DNA from: a virus
Length of the DNA: 27,164 nucleotides
Virus record (IMG/VR): IMGVR_UViG_3300000227_000026
Span: 1 to 27,164 of that record
Direction: 5' to 3' (one strand)
The position numbers were made by a program, and so were the translations under genes. Positions 1 to 13,193 of this stretch are shown piece by piece; position 1 is the stretch's first letter; each line of letters opens with the position of its first letter. The notes under the pieces are model-generated. The model was not told where the DNA came from, ran no database searches, and saw nothing but the letters and a program-made list of their open reading frames with translations.

Positions 1-58
1 AAAATCTGCTGTGCCCCAGCGTACTTAGTCCTATACTTCTAATATTTAAAAGACGCAT
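1..58 (-). CDS. Start of an unidentified protein, cut by the window edge
   Basis: On the minus strand an ATG at 58-56 opens a frame that stays open to the window edge and reads MRLLNIRSIGLSTLGHSRF. A purine-rich AGAGAG stands about four bases upstream of the ATG, and the start lies 20 bases past the stop of the HD-domain gene in the same direction, so it looks like the next gene of the leftward operon. Nineteen residues are too few to identify it. The opening is loosely like the first beta strands of SbcC/gp46-type ATPases, but this is only a resemblance. Confidence 0.4.
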   Translation of the reverse strand, partial: MRLLNIRSIGLSTLGHSRF

Positions 59-78
59 TTAACTCTCTATTAATCAAT

Positions 79-657
79 TTAACAATTGATATTATCACAT
101 AAGATGACTTTTAATGTTTTTTGTGAGGACAAGTAATCACATTGATATACAACTAATTCACAAATATTATAATTATTAATATCTTTTAATATAGATGGTG
201 GAGTCCACGGGCCCATATGATATATAATACAACTTTTTATCAGAGTAAAAACTTTTTCAGGTAATATTGATTTATTTTTTTCTATCATATTACCAGCAAC
301 AATAGGATGGTTTTTATATTCCCAAAAATTTTTACCATAATCTGCCTTTTTACCAATATCATGTAATAATAATGCAGATAAAATAATATCAGTTCGAATA
401 TCTGGTTCTATATTTTTCTTCGGGTCGCCATTCCATTGAAACGCATTAAAGAACATATTTGCGTACCAACAAGCAAGACGAATATGCCAAACAAGACCAC
501 CTTCTTTTGTGGCTTCTAATGGGTGATATTTTCCTGTTGTTGATGCTGGTATTTTCTCAATATAATCTGGTGTATCTTCTAAACACTTAGCTGTAAATTG
601 TCTAATTTGTTGGTTGTGAATCTGCTCCAATATATCTTGAAAAACTCGTATATTCAT
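79..657 (-). CDS. HD-domain phosphohydrolase
   Basis: This 192-residue protein carries the metal-binding residues of the HD superfamily in the right order: H58 in a GLVWH segment, the H99-D100 pair in LLLHDIGK, H117 in NHPIVAGNMI, H147 in IIYHMGPW and D174. The HDIGK form is that of cyclic-nucleotide and general HD phosphohydrolases rather than the YfbR/DatZ dNTPase form, which has a different spacing and an acidic residue after HD. The enzyme is expected to be a cytoplasmic metal-dependent phosphohydrolase; the substrate cannot be read from the sequence. Its place in one operon with ThyX and a dNTP diphosphohydrolase-like gene suggests a nucleotide. The start has only a weak Shine-Dalgarno sequence, and it lies 17 bases beyond the thyX stop, so translation may depend on coupling. 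Family is clear; substrate is unknown. Confidence 0.85.
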   Translation of the reverse strand: MNIRVFQDILEQIHNQQIRQFTAKCLEDTPDYIEKIPASTTGKYHPLEATKEGGLVWHIRLACWYANMFFNAFQWNGDPKKNIEPDIRTDIILSALLLHDIGKKADYGKNFWEYKNHPIVAGNMIEKNKSILPEKVFTLIKSCIIYHMGPWTPPSILKDINNYNICELVVYQCDYLSSQKTLKVILCDNINC

Positions 658-674
658 ATAATAAACTCAACTTT

Positions 675-1307
675 TTATATGTCTATTAATTCGTAAACAT
701 ATGTATTTTTTATAGAATTAAGAATTAAATTTGCTAAATATCTAATCTCAAAATGTGCTGTTTTGTTTAAACGAAGTGTAAGAAAATTCTGCAAAGACCT
801 GATATTAATTGACCAAGTTAAGTTAACTCTTAGTGCTTCTGGAATAAAATACTTCAGAAAATCGTTAGATAAATTTATGGTTTTCTTGAATAATTTCATT
901 CGTTCTACATCGACAAACCATGAGCTTTTTAGAGAAGAAATATATTCATTATAATCTTCTAAGCAATCCCATTCATCTTCTTTATAAAAAGGCGTTACAA
1001 AATATTCTTCTAAATCACCACCACTAATTTTTTCTTTTATAAGCATCTTATCTAACGTAAATCTAGTACTTTGTACAGTTAAAGAAGCATGTCTATGACG
1101 TGCTAGTTCTTGTAGGCAAAGTCTTGATATTCCTGTTATATCAAAATTAATAAACACATGTTCTGCAACTGAACCATGTTTTAACAATTTAATTACATTT
1201 TTAACTGTTTCAAACGATGGATTCTTTGTGTTATATGGTTTTTGTATAGCTGACAATAAAATTTCTTTTGGTGGAAGGTTTAAAATCTGAACATTTATAT
1301 TTTTCAT
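675..1307 (-). CDS. thyX: Flavin-dependent thymidylate synthase ThyX
   Basis: ThyX makes dTMP from dUMP, using FAD, NADPH and methylenetetrahydrofolate, and replaces ThyA in many phages. The 210-residue product has the family signature RHRX7S at R70-S80 (RHRHASLTVQS), followed by TRF. Upstream is the typical helix HGSVAEH (44-50), and the C-terminal segment NIRSLQNFLTLRL with a following EIR is also diagnostic. Its length is normal for phage ThyX. The start has an AAGAG Shine-Dalgarno, and the gene lies five bases after the cysteine-rich small gene in the same leftward operon. It probably supplies dTMP for phage DNA synthesis in an AT-rich genome. Family assignment is secure; activity is inferred from intact motifs. 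Confidence 0.95.
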   Translation of the reverse strand: MKNINVQILNLPPKEILLSAIQKPYNTKNPSFETVKNVIKLLKHGSVAEHVFINFDITGISRLCLQELARHRHASLTVQSTRFTLDKMLIKEKISGGDLEEYFVTPFYKEDEWDCLEDYNEYISSLKSSWFVDVERMKLFKKTINLSNDFLKYFIPEALRVNLTWSINIRSLQNFLTLRLNKTAHFEIRYLANLILNSIKNTYVYELIDI

Positions 1308-1312
1308 TTAAT

Positions 1313-1510
1313 TTACTCTTTTAATTTTCTTATTTCTATGGATTCACCTTCACCACATGCAAGTGTATCTGTTCTAACAACTGGATATCTTGTTTCTGTA
1401 ACTATAATTTCTGGTGGGTATCTTCTACAAATACCTATATTATTTGCTGTTTTTGAAAAGTATTTACACTGTGAACAAAAATCTGGTCTTTTTTCTAAAT
1501 ACTTAGTCAT
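1313..1510 (-). CDS. Small four-cysteine protein, possible metal-binding knuckle
   Basis: This protein has 65 residues with four cysteines (C12, C15, C28, C52) in a C-x2-C-x12-C-x23-C arrangement. The pieces CSQCKYF, GICRRYPP and a final TLACGEGE resemble a widespread family of tiny phage and bacterial proteins with CxxCxxF, CRRxPP and WCGEF blocks, whose function is not known to me. A metal site is plausible. The start chosen is the ATG at 1510, which shares one base with the stop of the upstream gene (TAATG) and follows GGTGG about five bases away. An in-frame GTG at 1519 would add three residues but has a poorer ribosome site. It sits between the dNTP diphosphohydrolase-like gene and thyX, so a role in nucleotide metabolism is possible but unproved. 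Confidence 0.8.
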   Translation of the reverse strand: MTKYLEKRPDFCSQCKYFSKTANNIGICRRYPPEIIVTETRYPVVRTDTLACGEGESIEIRKLKE

Positions 1511-1926
1511 TACTTCCACCCCAATATATTTTTCATCAGTTGTGCCATATCTTCATCTTTGAAAAATTCGTTTGGTATATCGTCTAACTCTTTTGGTAGT
1601 TTACCTATATCTATCATCATTTTAGTTTCTTTTAAACAGAGTAAGTTCCAAATTGCTTGTTCTAAATGTGGTTCGTCTTGCCAGTTAGCAAAAAATTTAA
1701 TCAAATGGCGCATAGCTGAATCAAAGTATCTACTTAAAGGTTGTCCTTTGCGCCAATTTTCTCTACCATATTTATTTGCACCCATTTCTGAAACTTTACT
1801 AACTTCCATAATTGCCATAAATTGCAATAAGCTAGGTAATCCTTTACCATCTTCTATATCTCTTTGGCTTCCAGTAGAAAACTGTTGTCTTTTGCCAGAA
1901 TCTAATACTTGTTTATTTATTGACAT
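1510..1926 (-). CDS. dATP/dGTP diphosphohydrolase-family (MazZ-like) protein
   Basis: This 138-residue protein matches the phage family annotated as dATP/dGTP diphosphohydrolase N-terminal domain (DUF5664). Visible family features are DSGKRQQF near the N-terminus (9-16), the block GANKYGRENWRKG (49-61), the helix RYFDSAMRHLIKF (66-78) and the later HLEQAIWNLLCLKE (87-100). These helices resemble the all-alpha MazG/NTP-PPase fold, with acidic residues as likely metal ligands. Members such as MazZ convert dATP/dGTP to the monophosphates. In some phages that feeds synthesis of 2-aminoadenine nucleotides; in others it probably only tunes dNTP pools. It is the first gene of the leftward operon, with a good AAGGAT Shine-Dalgarno six to seven bases before the ATG. 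Family confidence is good; the exact reaction is inferred. Confidence 0.75.
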   Translation of the reverse strand: MSINKQVLDSGKRQQFSTGSQRDIEDGKGLPSLLQFMAIMEVSKVSEMGANKYGRENWRKGQPLSRYFDSAMRHLIKFFANWQDEPHLEQAIWNLLCLKETKMMIDIGKLPKELDDIPNEFFKDEDMAQLMKNILGWK

Positions 1927-1970
1927 TATATTATCCTTCGTTTATCATAGAATTAAAGCTTTAAAAATAA

Positions 1971-1999
1971 ATTCTAATATAGTTTGACAAAATTGTCAA
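1971..1999 (-). promoter_or_regulatory. Promoter of the leftward nucleotide-metabolism operon
   Basis: Read on the minus strand, a perfect -35 TTGACA (1999-1994) is followed by a 17-base spacer and the -10 TAGAAT (1976-1971), one mismatch from consensus. Transcription would start near 1964, giving a leader of about 40 bases before the ATG at 1926. It is the only good promoter seen for the four minus-strand genes. Confidence 0.75.
1984..1999. promoter_or_regulatory. Inverted repeat in the divergent region, possible operator
   Basis: TTGACAA, two bases, TTGTCAA form a perfect 7-base inverted repeat. One arm overlaps the -35 box of the leftward promoter, and the repeat ends 15 bases before the terL start codon. 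A dimeric repressor or activator bound here could control both directions. The symmetry partly follows from TTGACA occurring on both strands, so it may not be an operator. No convincing rightward -10 lies downstream of the plus-strand TTGACA. Confidence 0.4.
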
Positions 2000-2014
2000 G
2001 AAAGAATTTTAAAA

Positions 2015-3985
2015 ATGATTGGTAACTATAATCCTGAAAAAATAAAACAATTAATATTAAAATCAATCAAAAAGACAGATTTTATTGAAAATTTAATTAA
2101 AGAACATCGGGGAAATGAAGAAATTGTATTAAGTGTTATACAAGATACATTTGAAGAAATATTAAAAGAATCCAATCCTTTTAGATGGGAACCAGTTAAA
2201 CCTCAACAGTTTTTATCAGACCCTTATTTCTTAGGGTTTAATCCAGAAACGGGCGAAGGTGTAGCATCTACTTTGCATGAAAAATTAAAAGAAGAATTTT
2301 GTGAAATACATAAAGAAAATGCTACATATTCTGAAGTAGTTTTAACAGGTGGTATTGGTTGGGGTAAATCTTTTTTTATGGAAATATGTATGATATGGCA
2401 ATTATACCTATTGTCATGTTTAAAAGCACCACAATTATTTTTTGGTTTAGGTGCTAATACAAAAATAGCACTTATGATTATTTCTATCACAGAAAAACAA
2501 AGTAAAAAGAACGTATTTTCTGGTATTAAAGAAGCACTTAAAAAGATACCATACTTTATAGAGAACTTCCAATTTGACTCAAAGAGAGCAACAGAATCGT
2601 TGATATTCCCAAATAATATAGAAATAATGAATGCGACATCAGAACATTCATCGACTATTGGTTTAAATATATATTCAGCTTGTCTTGATGAAGCTAACTT
2701 CTTTAAAAAGGTTACTAATTCTAAGAGAGCACAAGAAGCCGGAGAAATATATGATGAAGCATTAGTTCTTTATCAATCTGTTAGACGTAGGCTAGATGCA
2801 CGTTTCTTACAGAATGGCCATAAGCCCGGAATATTTTACATAGCTTCATCTAAAGTATATCCAAATGATTTCACAGCAACATTAGTGGAAAAAGCAAAAG
2901 AAATAGAACGAGAAAACGGAACAAAGTCTATTTATGTAATGGATTATAATCTATGGACTGTAAAACGTGACAGATATTCCAAAGAAGAATTTAAAGTAAT
3001 GGTTGGTGGTATAAATAGCAGAAGTAGGATTATTGATGAATTTGATAATTTACCTATAGTTGGCGAAGTTATACACGTACCAATGGATTTCTACGATGCT
3101 TTCAGAAAGAATATAGACAATTCTATTCGTGATATTGCTGGTGTTGCTACATACACTGTACAACCATTTATAGGAAACAAAGAATATATTGGAAATGCTT
3201 TTTTACATGGAGAACAATTAGGTTTAAAACGAATATTTTCTGTAGATATAGCAACATTATCACCAAAACCAGAATTTTTACAAACAGAATATATAATACC
3301 ACATAAAATAAGGCACCCAGAGGCCGTAAGATATATAGGTATAGATATCGGTATCAAAAACGATAAGTTTGGTTTTGCTATGGGTTATATAGATGGTTAT
3401 ACATTTGTAAAAAAAGAATATTTTAATGCAGAAAAACAAATGTTTGATACTTATGAAGAAAAGCTACCAAAATTAGTCATAGAAATGCTTCTTGTAATTA
3501 AAAAAGAAGAAGAATTTGGTGAAGTAGAATTATCAAGAGTTAGAAATTTAATCTTGCAATTAATGCGTTTTGGATATAAAATAAGACAGGTTTCAATGGA
3601 TGGTTTTCAATCTACAGATATGTTCCAGATTCTTAAAAGATATGGAATAGAAGGTACTTATATATCTATGGATAAAACAACTGAACCTTATGAAACTTAT
3701 AGAAGTGCATTATATGAAGAAAGAGTTTATTCTGTTTATCACCCTATATTAGAACTAGAATTAAACGAACTTGAAAGAAATTACGTAAGTAAAAAAATTG
3801 ATCACAATAGTAAGGGATCAAAAGATTTATCAGATGCAGCTGGTCAAATTGTTTACAACATGCATATAAATCCTATATACAACGATATGCCATTGTTACC
3901 AGTAAGCATTGGAAATAACAATGAAGATATATCACAATCTTATAATGATATTATTGAACAGTTTGAAAAATGGGCTAGAAACTAA
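2015..3985 (+). CDS. terL: Terminase large subunit (packaging ATPase-nuclease)
   Basis: TerL drives DNA into the prohead and cuts the concatemer. The 656-residue protein has both expected halves. The ATPase half shows Walker A GGIGWGKS (112-119) after an adenine-pocket-like stretch, and Walker B ACLDEANF with D225-E226. The RNase H-like nuclease half shows three metal-binding aspartates in the right contexts: D444 in IGIDIG, D529 in VSMDG and D607 in LSDAAG. Length is normal to slightly long for a terminase with its own N-terminal helices. No small terminase gene is visible nearby; it may lie outside the window. The start follows only a weak AAGAAAG ribosome site, and no strong rightward promoter is seen upstream. 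It begins the rightward structural block and is followed 18 bases later by the portal gene. Confidence 0.93.
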   Translation: MIGNYNPEKIKQLILKSIKKTDFIENLIKEHRGNEEIVLSVIQDTFEEILKESNPFRWEPVKPQQFLSDPYFLGFNPETGEGVASTLHEKLKEEFCEIHKENATYSEVVLTGGIGWGKSFFMEICMIWQLYLLSCLKAPQLFFGLGANTKIALMIISITEKQSKKNVFSGIKEALKKIPYFIENFQFDSKRATESLIFPNNIEIMNATSEHSSTIGLNIYSACLDEANFFKKVTNSKRAQEAGEIYDEALVLYQSVRRRLDARFLQNGHKPGIFYIASSKVYPNDFTATLVEKAKEIERENGTKSIYVMDYNLWTVKRDRYSKEEFKVMVGGINSRSRIIDEFDNLPIVGEVIHVPMDFYDAFRKNIDNSIRDIAGVATYTVQPFIGNKEYIGNAFLHGEQLGLKRIFSVDIATLSPKPEFLQTEYIIPHKIRHPEAVRYIGIDIGIKNDKFGFAMGYIDGYTFVKKEYFNAEKQMFDTYEEKLPKLVIEMLLVIKKEEEFGEVELSRVRNLILQLMRFGYKIRQVSMDGFQSTDMFQILKRYGIEGTYISMDKTTEPYETYRSALYEERVYSVYHPILELELNELERNYVSKKIDHNSKGSKDLSDAAGQIVYNMHINPIYNDMPLLPVSIGNNNEDISQSYNDIIEQFEKWARN

Positions 3986-4003
3986 CAACAAGGGGTTTTA
4001 ATT

Positions 4004-5695
4004 ATGTTTAATGTTATTAGTAAGTTGAAAAAATGGTTTCTTAGTGACGAAATAGAAAAAATAATAAAAGAAACAAAAGCTAGTGTATTAGAAGCTGTTG
4101 GAAATATGGCACCACCAAAATCTTTTGTTGATGACGAAGTTGATGATAGTGCTTATAAGTCATGGAAGTCTTTCATAGATAAAAACATGGAATTAAATGC
4201 TTCTGATCGTATTTGTTATACCGATTATAATAATATGGATGTAGAAGTGCCAGAATTGTCACAGGCGTTGGATGTTAATGCTGAATTTATTACATATCCA
4301 TCAGAAACAGATAAAATAGAAATTTTTAAAGTTAAACATAAATCTGCTCGTGTACAAAAACAGATAGAATCTATGTTAAAACGAATTAATTTTAAACAAG
4401 TCTTGTTTTCTATTATTAGAAATACTTTAAAATATGGTGATAATTTTGAAGAATTGATAACAGACCGGGAAAAGACAATGGTTGTTGAATTAAGAAACAT
4501 TCCTATAGAAACAATGATTCCTAATGTTAAAAATGGTATTATTAACCCGGATTCAGCATACATACAGGTTACTGATACTGGTGAAACTGTAGCTAATTTT
4601 AAAAAGAATGAAGTGTTTCATCTTTCTCTTTGTATAGATCGTGAACGCTGGACTAAATATAGAAAAGGTTTATCTATTCTACATTATTCAAGATTATCAT
4701 ACAGACAATTGAGATTAATGGAAGAAGGATTAATGATATCTAGGCTATCAAGAGCCAACCAAAATTATGCTATGATGCTTGATGTTGGTAATCTTGAAGG
4801 TGATGATGCTATAAACTTTATTAAGAAATATAAACAACAACTTCTTAGAAGAAAGTATATAGACCCAAAAACTGGCAAATGGTCATGGGAATACAACCCA
4901 CTTTCAGTAATAGAAGATATAATATTACCAACAAGACAAGGTTCTGGGGCTAATGTTGTTACACTAAACAACTCAAGCAACACTGGTAAAAATATAGAAG
5001 ATATAGAATATCATCAGAATAAAATGATATATTCTACTCATACACCAAAGATTTTTATTGGTAAAGAAACAGATATTAATTCAAAATCAACATCTGATGT
5101 TCAGATGACTACTTTCTTGAGAAAAATAAGAAGGTTCCAAATGATCTATGAACCTCAGTTAAAACAATTTATTGTAGATTGTATGGGTGTTGAAAAAATT
5201 ACAATATTTCCAGATGAATTTACTATTGAATGGCCTATAAGTAACTTTATAGATGAAGAACGAAAATGGAAAATAGAAAAACTTAAGCTAGATGTAGCAT
5301 CTATACTTAGCGAAATGGCACTTGTTGATGATCTTTATATTTACACAAAAATAATGGGTATGACAGACGATGAAGCACAAGAACTAATGGATAGACTTGA
5401 TACAGAAGAAGAAAACTATAAAGACGAACTAGATGCTATGTTAGCAACTGCCGACGATAAAAGTGATTTAACAGCAAAAGAATTTGAAAATCAACCTGAT
5501 GACGATAATAAAGATGATAAAGATGAAGATGAAGAACCGACAAAAGAAGATATCTTGGCGGCTTTACGTACTAAACTTGGTGAAGAAAAGTTTAATGAAT
5601 GGATTAAAATCCAAAAAATCTTAGATAAACACCCAGAAATTAAACATACTCTTGCTGAACTTGTTATGCTTACACAAGCAAAATTATTCCAATGA
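4004..5695 (+). CDS. Portal protein (T4 gp20-like)
   Basis: The portal forms the dodecameric ring at the head vertex through which DNA passes and to which terminase and neck attach. The 563-residue protein directly follows terL. It shows the pattern of gp20-type portals: an N-terminal region with VPELSQALDVNAEFITYP (about 83-100), a helix-rich clip and stem, and a KMIYSTHTPKIFIG region (about 340-353) in the later half. The C-terminus has a highly acidic low-complexity stretch (DDDNKDDKDEDEEPTKED) before a final helix, which is often disordered and may contact scaffold or protease. A Shine-Dalgarno AAGGGG lies upstream. The last four bases overlap the next start (ATGA), showing translational coupling. 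Identity rests on position, length and overall pattern rather than on a catalytic motif. Confidence 0.85.
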   Translation: MFNVISKLKKWFLSDEIEKIIKETKASVLEAVGNMAPPKSFVDDEVDDSAYKSWKSFIDKNMELNASDRICYTDYNNMDVEVPELSQALDVNAEFITYPSETDKIEIFKVKHKSARVQKQIESMLKRINFKQVLFSIIRNTLKYGDNFEELITDREKTMVVELRNIPIETMIPNVKNGIINPDSAYIQVTDTGETVANFKKNEVFHLSLCIDRERWTKYRKGLSILHYSRLSYRQLRLMEEGLMISRLSRANQNYAMMLDVGNLEGDDAINFIKKYKQQLLRRKYIDPKTGKWSWEYNPLSVIEDIILPTRQGSGANVVTLNNSSNTGKNIEDIEYHQNKMIYSTHTPKIFIGKETDINSKSTSDVQMTTFLRKIRRFQMIYEPQLKQFIVDCMGVEKITIFPDEFTIEWPISNFIDEERKWKIEKLKLDVASILSEMALVDDLYIYTKIMGMTDDEAQELMDRLDTEEENYKDELDAMLATADDKSDLTAKEFENQPDDDNKDDKDEDEEPTKEDILAALRTKLGEEKFNEWIKIQKILDKHPEIKHTLAELVMLTQAKLFQ

Positions 5696-6795
5696 AATTA
5701 GAAGCAAAGTTTTCTAAATCTCTATTAAAACGAAATAATGCCGTGGGGATAACCTACGGTGTTAGTCAATCTGAGCGTAAAGATACTGTTAAACAATTCA
5801 TGCAAACAAAAGCTTCTTATAAACAAGAACTTTTTAAACACATGGATTGGTTTTTAACTGGAAAAATTAATCAAGAACAGTATGAAAAATTACAGAAGGA
5901 CACTATTTCCAAACATTTCACTAATAGTTATTTGTTGGGTAAAAAGTTTAATCAAAGAACAGAAATTAATTTAACAGATGCAGAAAGAAGATTTATTGTA
6001 TATCAAACGACAGAAGAAATGAAATATATGTCAAAATTTGCATCGGATATGATTAATTTGTCTGGTAAAATGTCATACAAAAGAAGAATGAATATGTATG
6101 CTGGTGGATTAGACCCACTATTTAAACTTGGAGATATAGCATATTTACCAGAAGATATGCAAATAGAATGGATTTTGGGAATAACTGATAAACATTGTAT
6201 AGATTGTTTAATGTTTGCCAAGAATAGTCCATACACAAAAAGAACATTACCTGGGGTTCCTAGAAGTTGTAATTCACAATGTTTAAATAATTGTAAGTGT
6301 CATTTGAATTACTATACAAACTATGTAAATACAAATTATACAAACTTTATTATAGATAATTATACATCATCAAGAGATGAAATACCTTCTGAAAACGATT
6401 ACTTTTATATAAAGAATCAAATGGATAACTATTATAATAATCGTTTGAAGTATGAAATGACAAAGTTGGATACATTTTTTGACAAGGCCAAAGAAATTAA
6501 GAATAATCTTAACACTTATATTAATAGTAGAAATTTAGCTGTGTCTGTGATTCTTTATAATGCACAACAGATATCAGAACTTAAAAAGTTTAAAAATAAT
6601 CAATCATTTGATTATATTGAAAATACAACAACACTCAAAAGTAATGATATTGTGAGCGCATTTGTTGGTGGTAAACAAGTTTATGGAAAGGTTAAAGCAG
6701 TAGATGGAACAACTATATTTATAGAAACACTATTTGATAAAAATATGGTTGTTGATATTAGTGTTCATACTGTTTTTAAGATTAACAACAAATGA
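5692..6795 (+). CDS. MuF-type minor head protein with C-terminal SH3-like tail
   Basis: The 367-residue protein has a helical N-terminal half and then a cysteine/histidine-rich core: WILGITDKHCIDC at 160-172, followed by C193, C197, C201 and C203 in RSCNSQCLNNCKCHL. This HCxxC plus CxxxCxxxCxC pattern is what SPP1 gp7/Mu gpF (MuF) minor head proteins show, and it follows the portal as they do. MuF proteins sit inside the head near the portal. The last 50 residues, with SNDIVSAFVGGKQVYGKVKA (about 315-334), look like a small beta-barrel of SH3/Tudor type and are not part of the standard MuF core. The start overlaps the portal stop (ATGA) without its own Shine-Dalgarno, and the end overlaps the next gene the same way. 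Confidence 0.75.
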   Translation: MKLEAKFSKSLLKRNNAVGITYGVSQSERKDTVKQFMQTKASYKQELFKHMDWFLTGKINQEQYEKLQKDTISKHFTNSYLLGKKFNQRTEINLTDAERRFIVYQTTEEMKYMSKFASDMINLSGKMSYKRRMNMYAGGLDPLFKLGDIAYLPEDMQIEWILGITDKHCIDCLMFAKNSPYTKRTLPGVPRSCNSQCLNNCKCHLNYYTNYVNTNYTNFIIDNYTSSRDEIPSENDYFYIKNQMDNYYNNRLKYEMTKLDTFFDKAKEIKNNLNTYINSRNLAVSVILYNAQQISELKKFKNNQSFDYIENTTTLKSNDIVSAFVGGKQVYGKVKAVDGTTIFIETLFDKNMVVDISVHTVFKINNK

Positions 6796-8706: not shown

Positions 8707-8740
8707 TGGAAATGAATTAGAAATAAATCGGAGAATGAAT

Positions 8741-9901
8741 ATGAATAAAAATGTATCTTTTATTGAAAGAAATGAAAACTACCATAAGAGATATGGGCAT
8801 CTCGTAGAAGGCGTTAAATCTCAGGTAACTGGTAAAGTTATAGATCAGATTATGCAAAACAAAATGGAAATTTTGATGAATAATCTTATGGAAATGCGCT
8901 GTCAGGAATATGGTGTCGATATTAATAATATTAATATTGCGGAACTTCATGAACAGACTGCAAATAGTGGTATTGCATACGTTGTTAAAACCGAACTGGC
9001 TATGATTGATAAGATTTTCCCTAATCTTCTGATGAATGAAATTGCATCAATCCAGCCACTCGATGAACCAACAAGTACTATTTTTTACACTGATATTCAG
9101 CGTGAAGATGGTACTTCAGTTTCTTCTGCAATTCATACAAATAGAACTTATGGTGATAATGTAGAATATAATCCTTCTGCTCCACAGGCTATCAAAGAAT
9201 TAAATTATGTTATTACTTCTGACACTATTACCACCACTGAAAAGAAACTGAAAGCTTCTATCACCATTGAAGTACAACAGGATTTGCTTAGACGACATGG
9301 TAAAAATGCGGAATCTATCATGACCGCTAACCTTGCTTCTGAAACTGTTCGTGAGTGGGATAGAATGGGTATTCAGGCAATGTATGATGGTGCTACTGGT
9401 GGAGCTGCTGTTTTTAACAAAACAGAACCTTCTGGTCTTGCCTATGAAGATAGAAAATACTGGATGGAAACGTTGTATGAAAAAATGATTGATGTTGATA
9501 ATTCAATTTTTAAGAAAAGATATCGCAAAACCAATTTTATCATTTGTGGTGCCGATGAAGCCGCATTCATTGAAAAAATGCAAGGCTTTAGACCAGTTGA
9601 AGGCGATGTAACTACACAGATGATTGCTACTGGTGGTCGTTATTTTATGGGAACTTTGAAAAACCGCTGGAGAGTATTCGTTGACCCGTTGGAATCAGCA
9701 GGTAAAATTCTGATGGGTTATAACAATCCTTCAAAATGGGAAGAAACTAGTTTCGTATTTGCACCTTACATTCTGGCTTATATGTCACCTTGGTTTGTCA
9801 ATCCTGATACCCTTCGCCAAACTCGTGCCATTCTCTCAAGAGCTGGTATGAAAGTAGTTGTTGGTGATCTTCTTGGTGTAGTTACAGTAACTTCATCGTA
9901 A
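8741..9901 (+). CDS. Major capsid protein (T4 gp23-like, HK97 fold)
   Basis: This 386-residue protein follows protease and scaffold and has the features of gp23-type capsid proteins. A charged N-terminal arm of about 70 residues is followed by AYVVKTELAMIDKIFPNLL and IQPLDEPTSTIFYTD, which matches the gp23 strand near the E-loop, and by a C-terminal domain ending in NPDTLRQTRAILSRAGMKVV. The start is taken at 8741, since GGAG (8730-8733) is seven bases away; the ATG at 8735 touches the ribosome site. A likely maturation cut is after E71 in ELHEQ. The gene uses CAG for about 10 of 14 glutamines, whereas terL uses mostly CAA, as expected for very high expression. It stands alone between its own promoter and terminator. 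Confidence 0.9.
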   Translation: MNKNVSFIERNENYHKRYGHLVEGVKSQVTGKVIDQIMQNKMEILMNNLMEMRCQEYGVDINNINIAELHEQTANSGIAYVVKTELAMIDKIFPNLLMNEIASIQPLDEPTSTIFYTDIQREDGTSVSSAIHTNRTYGDNVEYNPSAPQAIKELNYVITSDTITTTEKKLKASITIEVQQDLLRRHGKNAESIMTANLASETVREWDRMGIQAMYDGATGGAAVFNKTEPSGLAYEDRKYWMETLYEKMIDVDNSIFKKRYRKTNFIICGADEAAFIEKMQGFRPVEGDVTTQMIATGGRYFMGTLKNRWRVFVDPLESAGKILMGYNNPSKWEETSFVFAPYILAYMSPWFVNPDTLRQTRAILSRAGMKVVVGDLLGVVTVTSS

Positions 9902-9913
9902 CTTTAACATGAT

Positions 9914-9947
9914 ATAGAGGGTGGATTTACCACCCTCTATTTTCTTG
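9914..9947 (+). terminator. Strong intrinsic terminator after the capsid gene
   Basis: ATAGAGGGTGG (9914-9924), loop ATTTA and CCACCCTCTAT (9930-9940) pair perfectly over 11 bases, with a GC-rich core, followed by TTTTCTT. It ends the capsid transcript just 13 bases after the stop. The next gene begins only 14 bases beyond the stem, so it must rely on read-through or an unseen promoter. Confidence 0.93.
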
Positions 9948-9954
9948 TAATAAA

Positions 9955-10551
9955 ATGTCAGAAGATTTTGTAAAAATAAAATACACTGATTGTTATGAAA
10001 AGTTATTAGTTATAATAGACAGATACAATTTTACAAAAGAATTTATTAGAAATGAATGGACTTGGGTACCAAAACATGTAGCGGTTAAACTATTAAAAAA
10101 CAATTATTTCATAACAGAACAGGATATTATCTTTAATCCTGATATTTTTAAAAAAGCCGGGTTAAAAATAGGATTAAAGAGATTTGGTGCGTATGGTGAT
10201 TTATTGCAATTGGTTCCTATTGTTAAATATCTTAAGCGCACAACAAATAATAAATATTATTTATTAACAAACGATTGTTATATAGAAGATTTCAAAAAAT
10301 ATAACATATTTGATGATGTGTTTAAATCAAATAAAGCTAGAAATTGGTTTGATAAAGTGATATTCCTAGATGGTGTTCTTGAGAAAGATCATAGCAATTC
10401 AAACCATGAGCGATATTTACACAGGATTCATATCGTTGAAGAATTTTTTAATATAAATTTAGATTATTATGATTTTTCTGTGAATATCAATAGTTCTGAT
10501 AAAAAATATGTATCAGAGATGTTAACAAATGCTATCTTACAACAAAAGTAA
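9955..10551 (+). CDS. GT9-like N-terminal domain protein (half glycosyltransferase)
   Basis: The 198-residue product carries the N-terminal Rossmann domain of heptosyltransferase-type (GT9) enzymes. The segment GLKRFGAYGDLLQLVPIVKYLK (from residue 73) contains the family G-D pair at G81-D82, and the block VLEKDHSNSNHERYLHRI matches ILEKDHSLENNENHQHRV in the next gene. Those two stretches show the genes are paralogues. This one ends where the donor-nucleotide domain would begin, so it is either a truncated copy or a partner subunit. No Shine-Dalgarno precedes the ATG, which lies right behind the capsid terminator, so expression is expected to be low. The 3' end overlaps the next gene by 23 bases in another frame. 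An enzyme lacking the second domain is unlikely to transfer sugar alone. Confidence 0.65.
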   Translation: MSEDFVKIKYTDCYEKLLVIIDRYNFTKEFIRNEWTWVPKHVAVKLLKNNYFITEQDIIFNPDIFKKAGLKIGLKRFGAYGDLLQLVPIVKYLKRTTNNKYYLLTNDCYIEDFKKYNIFDDVFKSNKARNWFDKVIFLDGVLEKDHSNSNHERYLHRIHIVEEFFNINLDYYDFSVNINSSDKKYVSEMLTNAILQQK

Positions 10552-11575
10552 ATTAACACAACTGATTTATTCACCAAAAGATTTTTATCCAATATCTGTT
10601 CATCCCAATATGATAGTCAATCTTTCTGGTTATAAAGATATAGATAGTTTAGCATTTGCTCCATTTTGTACAGATGTTTTAAAAGGTACCAATACTGTAA
10701 CCATACACAGAGATTATGCACTTGGTGATTTAATTCAATTGGTTCCAGTTGCTAGATTGATTAAAAAAGAATTTAATATTAAAACAGTAAATATCATAAC
10801 AAGCACTAGATTTAATCAGGATTTATCTTATTGTTATTCAGATATACATTTTTGGCCTAAAGAATATTTAAATGGTTCGACAACTGGTTTACAATTTGGT
10901 TTTATTATTTCTACAAATGGTATATTAGAAAAAGATCATTCATTAGAAAATAACGAAAATCATCAGCATAGAGTTGCTATTTATTTGGAATTATTTGGAA
11001 TAGTTAATTTTAAAAAAGAAGATTTAAATTGGAAATGTACTATGAAGGGTGGGGTTATTTTGCCTAAATTACAAACAGATAAACCTCTAATAGGATTACA
11101 AATACGTGGTTCTGGGTATATGAAAACATTGCCTTCATGTATGATAAGAAGTATAGCAAATGAACTTTCAAAAAAATACTATGTAGTACTTATAGACCAA
11201 GATATAAATATGGGTTTTGATGGTAAAAATATAATTAATCTTTGTGGTAAACTAAAAATTCCACAGGTTATAGCTTTATTAGAAAAACTTGATTTGTGTA
11301 TTACAATGGATAGTGGTGTTTTGTGGATGTGTCATAGCGCAAATTGTCCAACAATTACTTTTTTGGGTTCAACTAGAGAAGCGGAAAGAATATCATTACA
11401 TCCACAATATCCAAAGAAGGCAAAAGCTATTGATTTGACAAAATATGTTGGTTGTGAGCCTTGTTTTGAGACAAGGGTTAGATGTGGTGGTAAGATTCGT
11501 TGCATGAATGAAGTGAATTATGATATGATAAAAGACGAATTACTTGAAAAAGTAAAATCTATTATAGGAGTTTAA
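10529..11575 (+). CDS. GT9-family glycosyltransferase (heptosyltransferase-like)
   Basis: This 348-residue protein shows both GT-B halves of the GT9 family. The N-domain has YALGDLIQLVPVARLIKK with G66-D67, the position of the proposed catalytic aspartate in WaaC/WaaF. The C-domain has PLIGLQIRGSGYMKTLP (187-202), then ITMDSGVLWMCHSANCPTI with D261-S-G at the donor-binding loop, and the cysteine-rich end CEPCFETRVRC with CM (309-326), typical of heptosyltransferase relatives. It should transfer a sugar from a nucleotide donor. Substrate is unknown: it could decorate virion proteins, host surface glycans or phage DNA bases. It overlaps the half-GT gene upstream by 23 bases and is followed closely by a methyltransferase, forming a small sugar-modification cassette between capsid and neck genes. 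The ribosome site (AGAG) is weak. Confidence 0.8.
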   Translation: MLSYNKSKLTQLIYSPKDFYPISVHPNMIVNLSGYKDIDSLAFAPFCTDVLKGTNTVTIHRDYALGDLIQLVPVARLIKKEFNIKTVNIITSTRFNQDLSYCYSDIHFWPKEYLNGSTTGLQFGFIISTNGILEKDHSLENNENHQHRVAIYLELFGIVNFKKEDLNWKCTMKGGVILPKLQTDKPLIGLQIRGSGYMKTLPSCMIRSIANELSKKYYVVLIDQDINMGFDGKNIINLCGKLKIPQVIALLEKLDLCITMDSGVLWMCHSANCPTITFLGSTREAERISLHPQYPKKAKAIDLTKYVGCEPCFETRVRCGGKIRCMNEVNYDMIKDELLEKVKSIIGV

Positions 11576-11578
11576 ATA

Positions 11579-12445
11579 ATGGGTAGAAAAAAGAAAAATT
11601 ATGACAAACCTGTAGAAGAACAACCAAAAGTCAAAGATAATTTATTAGAATTTGGTGATCTTGAAACAGAAGCTATAATTAGTGGCGATAATGAACTTAC
11701 AATAACAGAATCAAATAATTTTGTTGTAGACTCAGAAGCTATTATTCCAGAAGAAGTAACAGAAGAAATGAAATTAGAAGAATCTATTAGCACATCAGAA
11801 ACAGCAGTTAAAGTTTCTGATGTTGTTGTTAAGACAACTATGGAAGATTATGAGAAGATTTTTAATGAAGAATATTTCAATAATCTGAAAGAAAAAGGTT
11901 GCGATTATACTGCTTATGGTAAGTGGCAAGAAGCATATTGTGGTGTTTTTCAAAGAGCATTTAATCTTAGAAATAAAACCATATTAGATGTAGGTTCTGC
12001 TTATGGTTCTATTAGTTTTGGTTTTAAAATGCAGGGTGTTATGTCTGTAGCTGTTGATGTTGCTAAATGTTTGGTTGGTAAAACATTTAGAGGTATTAGA
12101 TTTGTTAATGCTATGGCTCAACACATGCCAGATATTGATAATAAAACCATAGATTTTATTCATTGTTCTTATGTTTTAAATTATATACCAAAAAATGAAC
12201 TTGTTGATACTTTTAAAGAATTTAAGCGTGTTATAACAGATCATGGCAAAATTCTTGTTATTTTCAACAAAGGTAATGATAATGTATCTGGTATTAATCA
12301 CATGCACACAAATGAAACAGTAATTAATGCAGCAATTGAAGCAAATTTAAAGCTGTTTGAATGTAAAGAAATATTAAAACATTATGATGACCCAGAATAC
12401 AGGTTTATCCAGTCTTATGATTGGAATATCCTGTGTTTTGAATAA
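11579..12445 (+). CDS. SAM-dependent methyltransferase with acidic N-terminal tail
   Basis: The C-terminal two thirds of this 288-residue protein form a class I (Rossmann) methyltransferase: motif I ILDVGSAYGS (135-144), the acidic end of strand 2 at D160 in VAVDVAK, motif with IDFIHCSYVLNYIP (191-204) and VITDHGKILVIF (218-229). It resembles small-molecule or sugar methyltransferases rather than DNA methylases, since no DPPY/NPPF catalytic motif is seen. The first ~85 residues are a low-complexity, acidic, probably disordered tail starting MGRKKKNY, unusual for the family and possibly a tether to virion or partner. A good GGAG ribosome site precedes the ATG, four bases after the glycosyltransferase stop, so the two are co-translated and likely act on one glycan. 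The target is not known. Confidence 0.8.
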   Translation: MGRKKKNYDKPVEEQPKVKDNLLEFGDLETEAIISGDNELTITESNNFVVDSEAIIPEEVTEEMKLEESISTSETAVKVSDVVVKTTMEDYEKIFNEEYFNNLKEKGCDYTAYGKWQEAYCGVFQRAFNLRNKTILDVGSAYGSISFGFKMQGVMSVAVDVAKCLVGKTFRGIRFVNAMAQHMPDIDNKTIDFIHCSYVLNYIPKNELVDTFKEFKRVITDHGKILVIFNKGNDNVSGINHMHTNETVINAAIEANLKLFECKEILKHYDDPEYRFIQSYDWNILCFE

Positions 12446-12460
12446 TTATATATATTTCTT

Positions 12461-12490
12461 GGTTGGTAGTCTTACAAAAGACTACCAACC
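12461..12490 (+). terminator. Hairpin after the methyltransferase gene, weak terminator or processing site
   Basis: GGTTGGTAGTC (12461-12471), loop of eight bases, GACTACCAACC (12480-12490) is a perfect 11-base stem between the methyltransferase and adaptor genes. The following TTGAACAAAA has no U-run, so termination should be inefficient. It may protect or process the message, or partially attenuate transcription into the neck genes. Confidence 0.6.
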
Positions 12491-12515: not shown

Positions 12516-13193
12516 ATGACAATGGATGAATTCAAACAATTATTATCTGATTTTTATAATATGGACACCATTAATGTACCTCATCTTGATAATATCATAG
12601 CTAGGGCTATACGAAAATTATCCGAATTCTATCCATTTCTTGAAACAAGTTCTATATTTACTATATCAAATCAAACAAGATACACTATTAACCATAGTGA
12701 TCTTATAAAACTTGAGAATGTATATTATAATTCACCATATTCTGTAAATTCTTTTGGTGATTCTGATATAATAGATATCAGAAAACATGGTGGTTTCAGT
12801 TTATCTCAACAAATTACAGATATCTATGAACATGAAACACAGCGAAGAATTAAACCAGTAGATGCTAGAATTGTAAGTAATGATACATTTGACTTGATTC
12901 CTACACCAACAACGATAGAAACTGTTTATTATGAGTATTCAAGGTATAGAACAATAGATGAAATACCAAGAATATTTGAAGATGAACTTATTGCACTTGT
13001 TATTTACTATAAAAATGACCCAACGTATCAAAACAATCGTTCAGCAAATAATGGAAATGTATTTAACTTTGATAGACGTGGAAATACAACAGAATCATCA
13101 TCATTTACACCACAGAATGCCTATGATTTAAGAAAAGACGAATTAAAGTCTATTTGTGATGATATAAAAAAGAAGGTGAATAAACTTGGCTAA
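12516..13193 (+). CDS. Head-tail adaptor (connector) protein
   Basis: This 225-residue protein is the first gene of the neck block and shows the arrangement of phage head-tail adaptors that dock on the portal: N-terminal helices (MDEFKQLLSDFYN, then IIARAIRKLSEFYP), a beta-rich centre and a C-terminal helical pair with the LIALVIYYKNDPTYQ and ELKSICDDIKKK segments. The stretch PTTIETVYYEYSRYRTIDEI resembles central strands of such adaptors. A good AGGAG lies eight bases before the ATG. The last eight bases overlap the next gene. Identification rests on gene order between capsid and tail tube and on the fold pattern, not on a catalytic motif; a general virion structural protein is the alternative. 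Confidence 0.6.
   Translation: MTMDEFKQLLSDFYNMDTINVPHLDNIIARAIRKLSEFYPFLETSSIFTISNQTRYTINHSDLIKLENVYYNSPYSVNSFGDSDIIDIRKHGGFSLSQQITDIYEHETQRRIKPVDARIVSNDTFDLIPTPTTIETVYYEYSRYRTIDEIPRIFEDELIALVIYYKNDPTYQNNRSANNGNVFNFDRRGNTTESSSFTPQNAYDLRKDELKSICDDIKKKVNKLG

Follow-up and report, generated by a model that had tools for sequence, protein, structure and literature searches.

Why should a phage keep genes for sugar transfer and methylation in the middle of its virion genes? The question is raised by the stretch of 27,164 nt analysed here (the window), which is part of a 30.9-kb contig in a 2.5-Mb metagenome bin, the portion of that contig that was read being phage. Its genes run in the order T4-like portal, head protease, Gp23-type capsid, a block of three genes designated A, B and C, SU10-type adaptor, tail tube and a 2544-aa ORF downstream of the tail tube gene that is probably the tape measure. 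The preliminary description had read the block as two GT9-like genes and a methyltransferase gene, closely spaced or overlapping, between capsid and neck genes. The placement and the tight spacing were borne out, with a Gp23-type capsid gene on the 5′ side and an SU10-type adaptor gene on the 3′ side; as to content, B proved to be a GT9 enzyme and C a methyltransferase, whereas A corresponds only to the N-lobe half of such an enzyme. The features of the locus are as follows.

8735-9901, plus strand: major capsid protein (MCP), Gp23-type (Pfam Gp23, E 4.8e-41; PHROG major head protein)
9884-9898, plus strand: MCP codons for residues 384-388 (TVTSS), proposed O-glycan site (conserved C-terminal Ser; mycobacteriophage precedent)
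9914-9940, plus strand: intrinsic-terminator-like hairpin in the capsid-block interval (11-pair stem, then TTTCTT)
9955-10551, plus strand: gene A, 198 aa, small N-terminal beta domain and GT-B N-lobe only (hhalign, AF2)
10529-11575, plus strand: gene B, 348 aa, complete GT9-type (GT-B) glycosyltransferase (Pfam, AF2/Foldseek)
11579-12445, plus strand: gene C, 288 aa, class I SAM methyltransferase (Pfam Methyltransf_11/25/23 above cut-off)
12461-12490, plus strand: hairpin in the interval between C and the adaptor gene (perfect 11-bp stem, in sequence and fold)
12516-13193, plus strand: SU10-type head-tail adaptor (Pfam SU10_adaptor, E 1.5e-06)

The three genes are same-strand ORFs, A and B overlapping by 23 nt and B and C being separated by 3 nt. 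The position of the hairpin on the capsid side is kept in most of the relatives with this interval, its sequence differing among them, and in the window this hairpin would lower expression of the block relative to that of the capsid gene. The hairpin on the adaptor side is present in relatives L009 and L014 and absent in L007, L008 and L013. At positions 13694-13737 of L007, C is without its usual C-terminal end and reads into the adaptor gene, the intergenic hairpin being missing, and this junction reflects either a deletion at this spot or faulty assembly.

The identity of the three products was assessed by family profiles, profile alignments and structure models. Gene B matches PF01075 (Glyco_transf_9) with an E of 1.8e-10 and 41 bits, against a curated cut-off of 22, and the same family is matched by its homologues in distant phages. 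It possesses both GT-B lobes, and Asp67 (GD), Lys199 (KxLP), Asp261-Ser-Gly and four cysteines are invariant in 10/10 members, the catalytic motifs aligning with those of WaaF in a profile alignment. A Foldseek search with the AF2 model of B (pLDDT 82) returned TibC (4rap), a protein O-heptosyltransferase, as the top match (E 1.4e-10), followed by GT9, WaaF and WaaC. The NCBIfam models gave hits of both kinds, with TIGR04414 (Aah/TibC) matching 3/7 B members (best E 7.9e-07) and TIGR02195 (LPS heptosyltransferase II) matching 7/7 (best E 3.3e-08), so that, as far as sequence models go, they cannot separate a protein-type from an LPS-type subfamily for B. Among GenBank phages, matches to B were weak only (27 Vibrio phage records, 21-26% identity over about 40%).

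Compared with known enzymes, B shares with the BAHT group (TibC, AAH), ring-shaped dodecamers which transfer heptose from ADP-heptose to a protein, its best fold match, the DxDxxxGF and SGxxW stretches seen when the profiles are aligned, and a C-terminal four-cysteine motif. It differs in the spacing of these cysteines (CX2CX6CX5C, vs Cys339/342/358/370 in the TibC iron finger), in an N-terminal beta region of about half the TibC length, and in standing without an autotransporter substrate and with an extra half-subunit, A, and a methyltransferase, C. The four-cysteine motif (CxPC...CM) was considered as proof of a TibC-type enzyme and rejected, since GT9s from the host-assigned bin carry it as well. 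With the LPS heptosyltransferases WaaF and WaaC (GT9), B shares the GT-B family and the GD, KxLP and DSG motifs; it differs in carrying a Trp after DSG where His is usual (SGVLW, vs SGLMH in WaaF) and in lying in a phage late operon, paired with A.

Gene A gave zero family matches in Pfam, and its homology to B is confined to the N-terminal lobe (hhalign probability 99.3%, E 3.6e-20; approximately B residues 46-171). Its C-terminal donor-binding lobe is absent, so that conventional enzyme activity by A alone is impossible, and the two equivalent GT9 enzymes of the preliminary description give way to one enzyme and an N-lobe-only protein which, judged from the profile alignment, is a paralogue of B keeping the acceptor-side lobe. 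The AF2 model of A has a pLDDT of 79. Across all full members A is 172-215 aa long, with an invariant GD (Asp82) and an LDGxxExDHS...HR motif that is common to A and B, and nine relatives keep it as a short gene of its own. The dN/dS ratios between the window and L007, the closest relative, are 0.115 for A and 0.135 for B, with 0.113 for the adaptor gene; A and B are thus under purifying selection, and the conservation and dN/dS of A rule out a decaying duplicate or a chance ORF. A programmed frameshift fusion of A and B was likewise discarded, since the overlap ranges from 0 to 50 nt and the relative frame is +1, 0 or +2 among relatives, which means that A and B are separate proteins. Single-lobe subunits are known from split GT-B enzymes such as Alg13/Alg14; A resembles these in being a single GT-B lobe, but its partner B is a complete GT-B enzyme, and A is therefore extra and not a missing half.

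The small N-terminal domain of A returned nothing significant in Pfam, PHROGs or phages, and the idea of an N-terminal beta domain common to A and B was unsupported by sequence. In L039, L041 and L059, the protein in the A slot retains only this small beta domain, preceded by a tail of basic and acidic repeats and without the N-lobe; in L039/L041 its length is roughly 134-162 aa, varying with the contig and the start codon chosen. The repeat number differs between L039 (5812-6258) and L041 (5779-6267), though these phages are near-identical.

Gene C matches Methyltransf_11 with an E of 3.4e-07, above the curated cut-off, and its motif I (LDxGxAxG) is invariant. Its N-terminal tail, roughly 90 aa of low-complexity sequence that is basic and then acidic, is poorly conserved, and the dN/dS of C between the window and L007 is 0.39. 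Its family matches name no sugar substrate, and zero matches were found among GenBank phages. Prohead-protease sites (LxE) in the tail, as a sign that C is packaged into the head, were considered and dropped, as by eye in alignments these motifs are not conserved. A screen for defence genes with PADLOC gave a sole match, of C to the mads_2 model (methyltransferase region, E 1.5e-05), which was judged generic, and C was not taken for a defence gene. A second, tail-less C homologue (E 1.5e-22) lies at 2533-3153 (minus strand) of L028, which is the 120-kb contig of L014; an apparent DNA polymerase gene lies downstream of it on that strand.

The distribution of the block was then determined by searching for relatives with three separate queries, namely capsid, tail tube and block. 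Ten distinct close relatives are distinguished (L007, L008, L009, L011, L013, L014, L017, L037, L039 and L043); L041 and L059 are near-copies of L039, and L034, a contig of a Bacteroidetes bin, has profile scores identical to those of L014. Three contigs are partial, L011 and L017 stopping within or just past B and L013 beginning 3′ of the capsid gene. The block is present in every close relative with a readable capsid-adaptor interval, including those found by capsid or tail tube; over all the relatives found, close and distant, sugar-transferring genes are present throughout and a methyltransferase gene in nearly all. The block is absent from the more distant Gp23-type phages L025, L026, L032 and L033 and from GenBank T4-like phages. 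The genome collection yielded zero relatives with the first B profile, and a ten-sequence B profile led to three distant phages, L062, L063 and L064, in each of which a GT9 homologue of B begins directly 3′ of the capsid gene. After B, L062 has a 320-aa ORF and a second GT9; L063 has a GT9-GT2-GT9 fusion, a GT2 and a GT1-like enzyme; and L064 has a GT9-GT2-GT9 fusion and methyltransferases (the second one by eye). No gene matching C was found near B in L062 and L063.

The capsids of these three phages are 24-35% identical to that of the window, and in the capsid tree all capsids with B directly 3′ form one clade (support 97/95), which indicates that the adjacency of capsid and B is old and that the genes after B vary. 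Because the N-lobe of A is lacking in L039, L041 and L059, and a match to C near B in L062 and L063, neither the A lobe nor C is strictly required. Between pairs of phages, the identities of A and B rise and fall with those of capsid and adaptor (r 0.83-0.91), consistent with vertical inheritance. Looking for the triplet beside capsid genes in other phages had been proposed as a check on the preliminary description, and the block occurred in every relative examined and not sporadically. These results demonstrated that the block is a core locus and not a sporadic insertion.

Other features of these contigs were observed in passing. In L007, a tryptophan-halogenase domain (PF04820, E 1.8e-85) is fused to a DUF4942-containing region within a 939-aa ORF (2-2818, minus strand), which is unusual for a phage contig, and a 792-aa ORF in the terminase position (2979-5357) has an intein (PF14890, E 3.6e-14), its 656-aa homologue in the window (2015-3985) being without one. 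In L014 (4747-7131) and L017 (1-1887; by eye), the homologue of the window gene at 5692-6795 is interrupted by an intein-like sequence that contains a DUF559-type nuclease domain, apparently at the same site in both.

What, then, is the block likely to modify? The major capsid protein, encoded directly upstream, appears to be the likeliest acceptor. In mycobacteriophages, glycans are reported on the C-termini of capsid and tail-tube proteins (PMC12619734), and the MCP of the window ends in ...TVTSS, which is a candidate O-glycan site, perhaps. A terminal Ser was found in 13/13 cassette-bearing capsids and 0/12 others, a correlation that is confined to one clade and phylogenetically amounts to one event. 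The dN/dS of the capsid gene is 0.088 (window vs L007). Near the MCP N-terminus (residues about 20-27), an HLxEG sequence conserved in most relatives resembles a T4-type prohead-protease site (LxE|G) and implies a short cleaved propeptide.

The closest functional parallel is provided by the cluster O mycobacteriophages, in which an O-methyltransferase and glycosyltransferases are encoded between the portal and capsid protease genes (PMC4351075). The two systems (Corndog gp35-gp38 and Firecracker gp33-gp36 in cluster O) are alike in having glycosyltransferases and a methyltransferase in the virion block beside capsid genes. The capsid is reported as glycosylated in cluster O, and glycosylation of the capsid is reported to require Corndog gp38 (PMC12363180, citing Freeman et al. 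2023). They differ in their enzymes, a TylF-type methyltransferase and GT2/GT25-like transferases there (in Firecracker gp33 TylF-type, gp35 GT2-like and gp36 GT25) vs GT9 and Methyltransf_11 here, in their place, a portal/protease interval there vs a capsid/adaptor interval here, and in the half-glycosyltransferase, which cluster O does not have. Since the enzyme families differ, the likeness is one of function and layout, not of descent.

Taken together, we consider it somewhat probable that the block forms a late-expressed module for modifying the virion, in which B glycosylates a virion protein, A is accessory and C methylates the sugar. B would move a nucleotide sugar supplied by the host, possibly a heptose, onto a particle protein, probably the major capsid protein and perhaps its Ser/Thr C-terminus; A, co-translated with B and no independent enzyme, would serve as an accessory or acceptor-presenting subunit; and C would then methylate the added sugar to form a cap. 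A heptose donor is plausible, as the host-assigned bin, which is linked to the phage by binning alone, has an HldE-type heptose kinase, with sub-threshold matches only for an HldD-type epimerase; no sugar epimerase family was found in the five phage contigs. Virion decoration had been hinted at by the late structural position, and it is now the best-supported reading on the strength of the fixed place beside the capsid gene, the cluster O analogue and the likeness of B to protein and LPS glycosyltransferases alike.

The first of the alternatives, which we think unlikely, is that the block alters a host-surface glycan (the LPS core) late in infection, B adding the sugar and C methylating it. 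The GT9 family is dominated by LPS heptosyltransferases, which makes LPS modification possible, and the TIGR02195 matches and the WaaF and WaaC folds described above point the same way. A benefit can be imagined, also with low probability, in that progeny would not stick to debris or infected cells would exclude other phages. However, exclusion genes are usually early or lysogenic, and the block in all relatives lies inside virion genes, directly 3′ of the capsid gene; neither a membrane anchor nor an export signal was noticed in the block sequences, and no lysogeny genes in the window. Host-surface modification is therefore less likely than virion decoration.

It is also quite improbable that A serves chiefly as a minor virion protein or assembly factor, its GT-like lobe being a binding fold, with C directly methylating a virion protein and B acting separately. 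Such a role would suit the A-slot protein of L039/L041, which has the basic and acidic repeats and only the beta domain of A and shares its low-complexity N-terminus with C, as well as the family matches of C, which point to no particular sugar as substrate. Yet A retains the GD aspartate and the LDGxxExDHS...HR motif in common with B, which a mere scaffold need not, and the analogous cluster O enzymes were detected in infected cells and not in virions (PMC4351075).

Within the preferred reading of virion decoration, A and B might also form a shared-donor enzyme, in which A supplies a second acceptor lobe that uses the single donor lobe of B, giving two acceptor sites (for example, one where the capsid protein receives the first sugar and one where the growing glycan receives the next), C adding the cap. 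We know of no example of such a GT-B arrangement, and we regard it as distinctly doubtful; if true, it would belong to a system of capsid glycosylation that goes back to the ancestor of an entire Gp23-type phage clade. Lastly, glycosylation of phage DNA against restriction, a target named in the preliminary description, is highly improbable: phage glycosyltransferases that hypermodify DNA exist (PMC12619734), but B is GT9-like, the block has a structural position away from replication genes, and no ThyA-type dCMP/dUMP hydroxymethylase occurs in the 120-kb relative and four other phage contigs, possibly incomplete.

As far as the literature surveyed goes, the phages with established virion glycosylation are a few mycobacteriophages, and the locus described here suggests that coat glycosylation extends well past them. 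The conserved half-glycosyltransferase A is a structural puzzle and the least explained part of the block. Capsid and GT9 genes stay adjacent across a clade in which capsid identity falls to 24%, and the genes 3′ of B diversify into apparent glycan-building operons. If virion decoration is the true function, coat glycosylation would be an old, core trait of this uncultured phage lineage.
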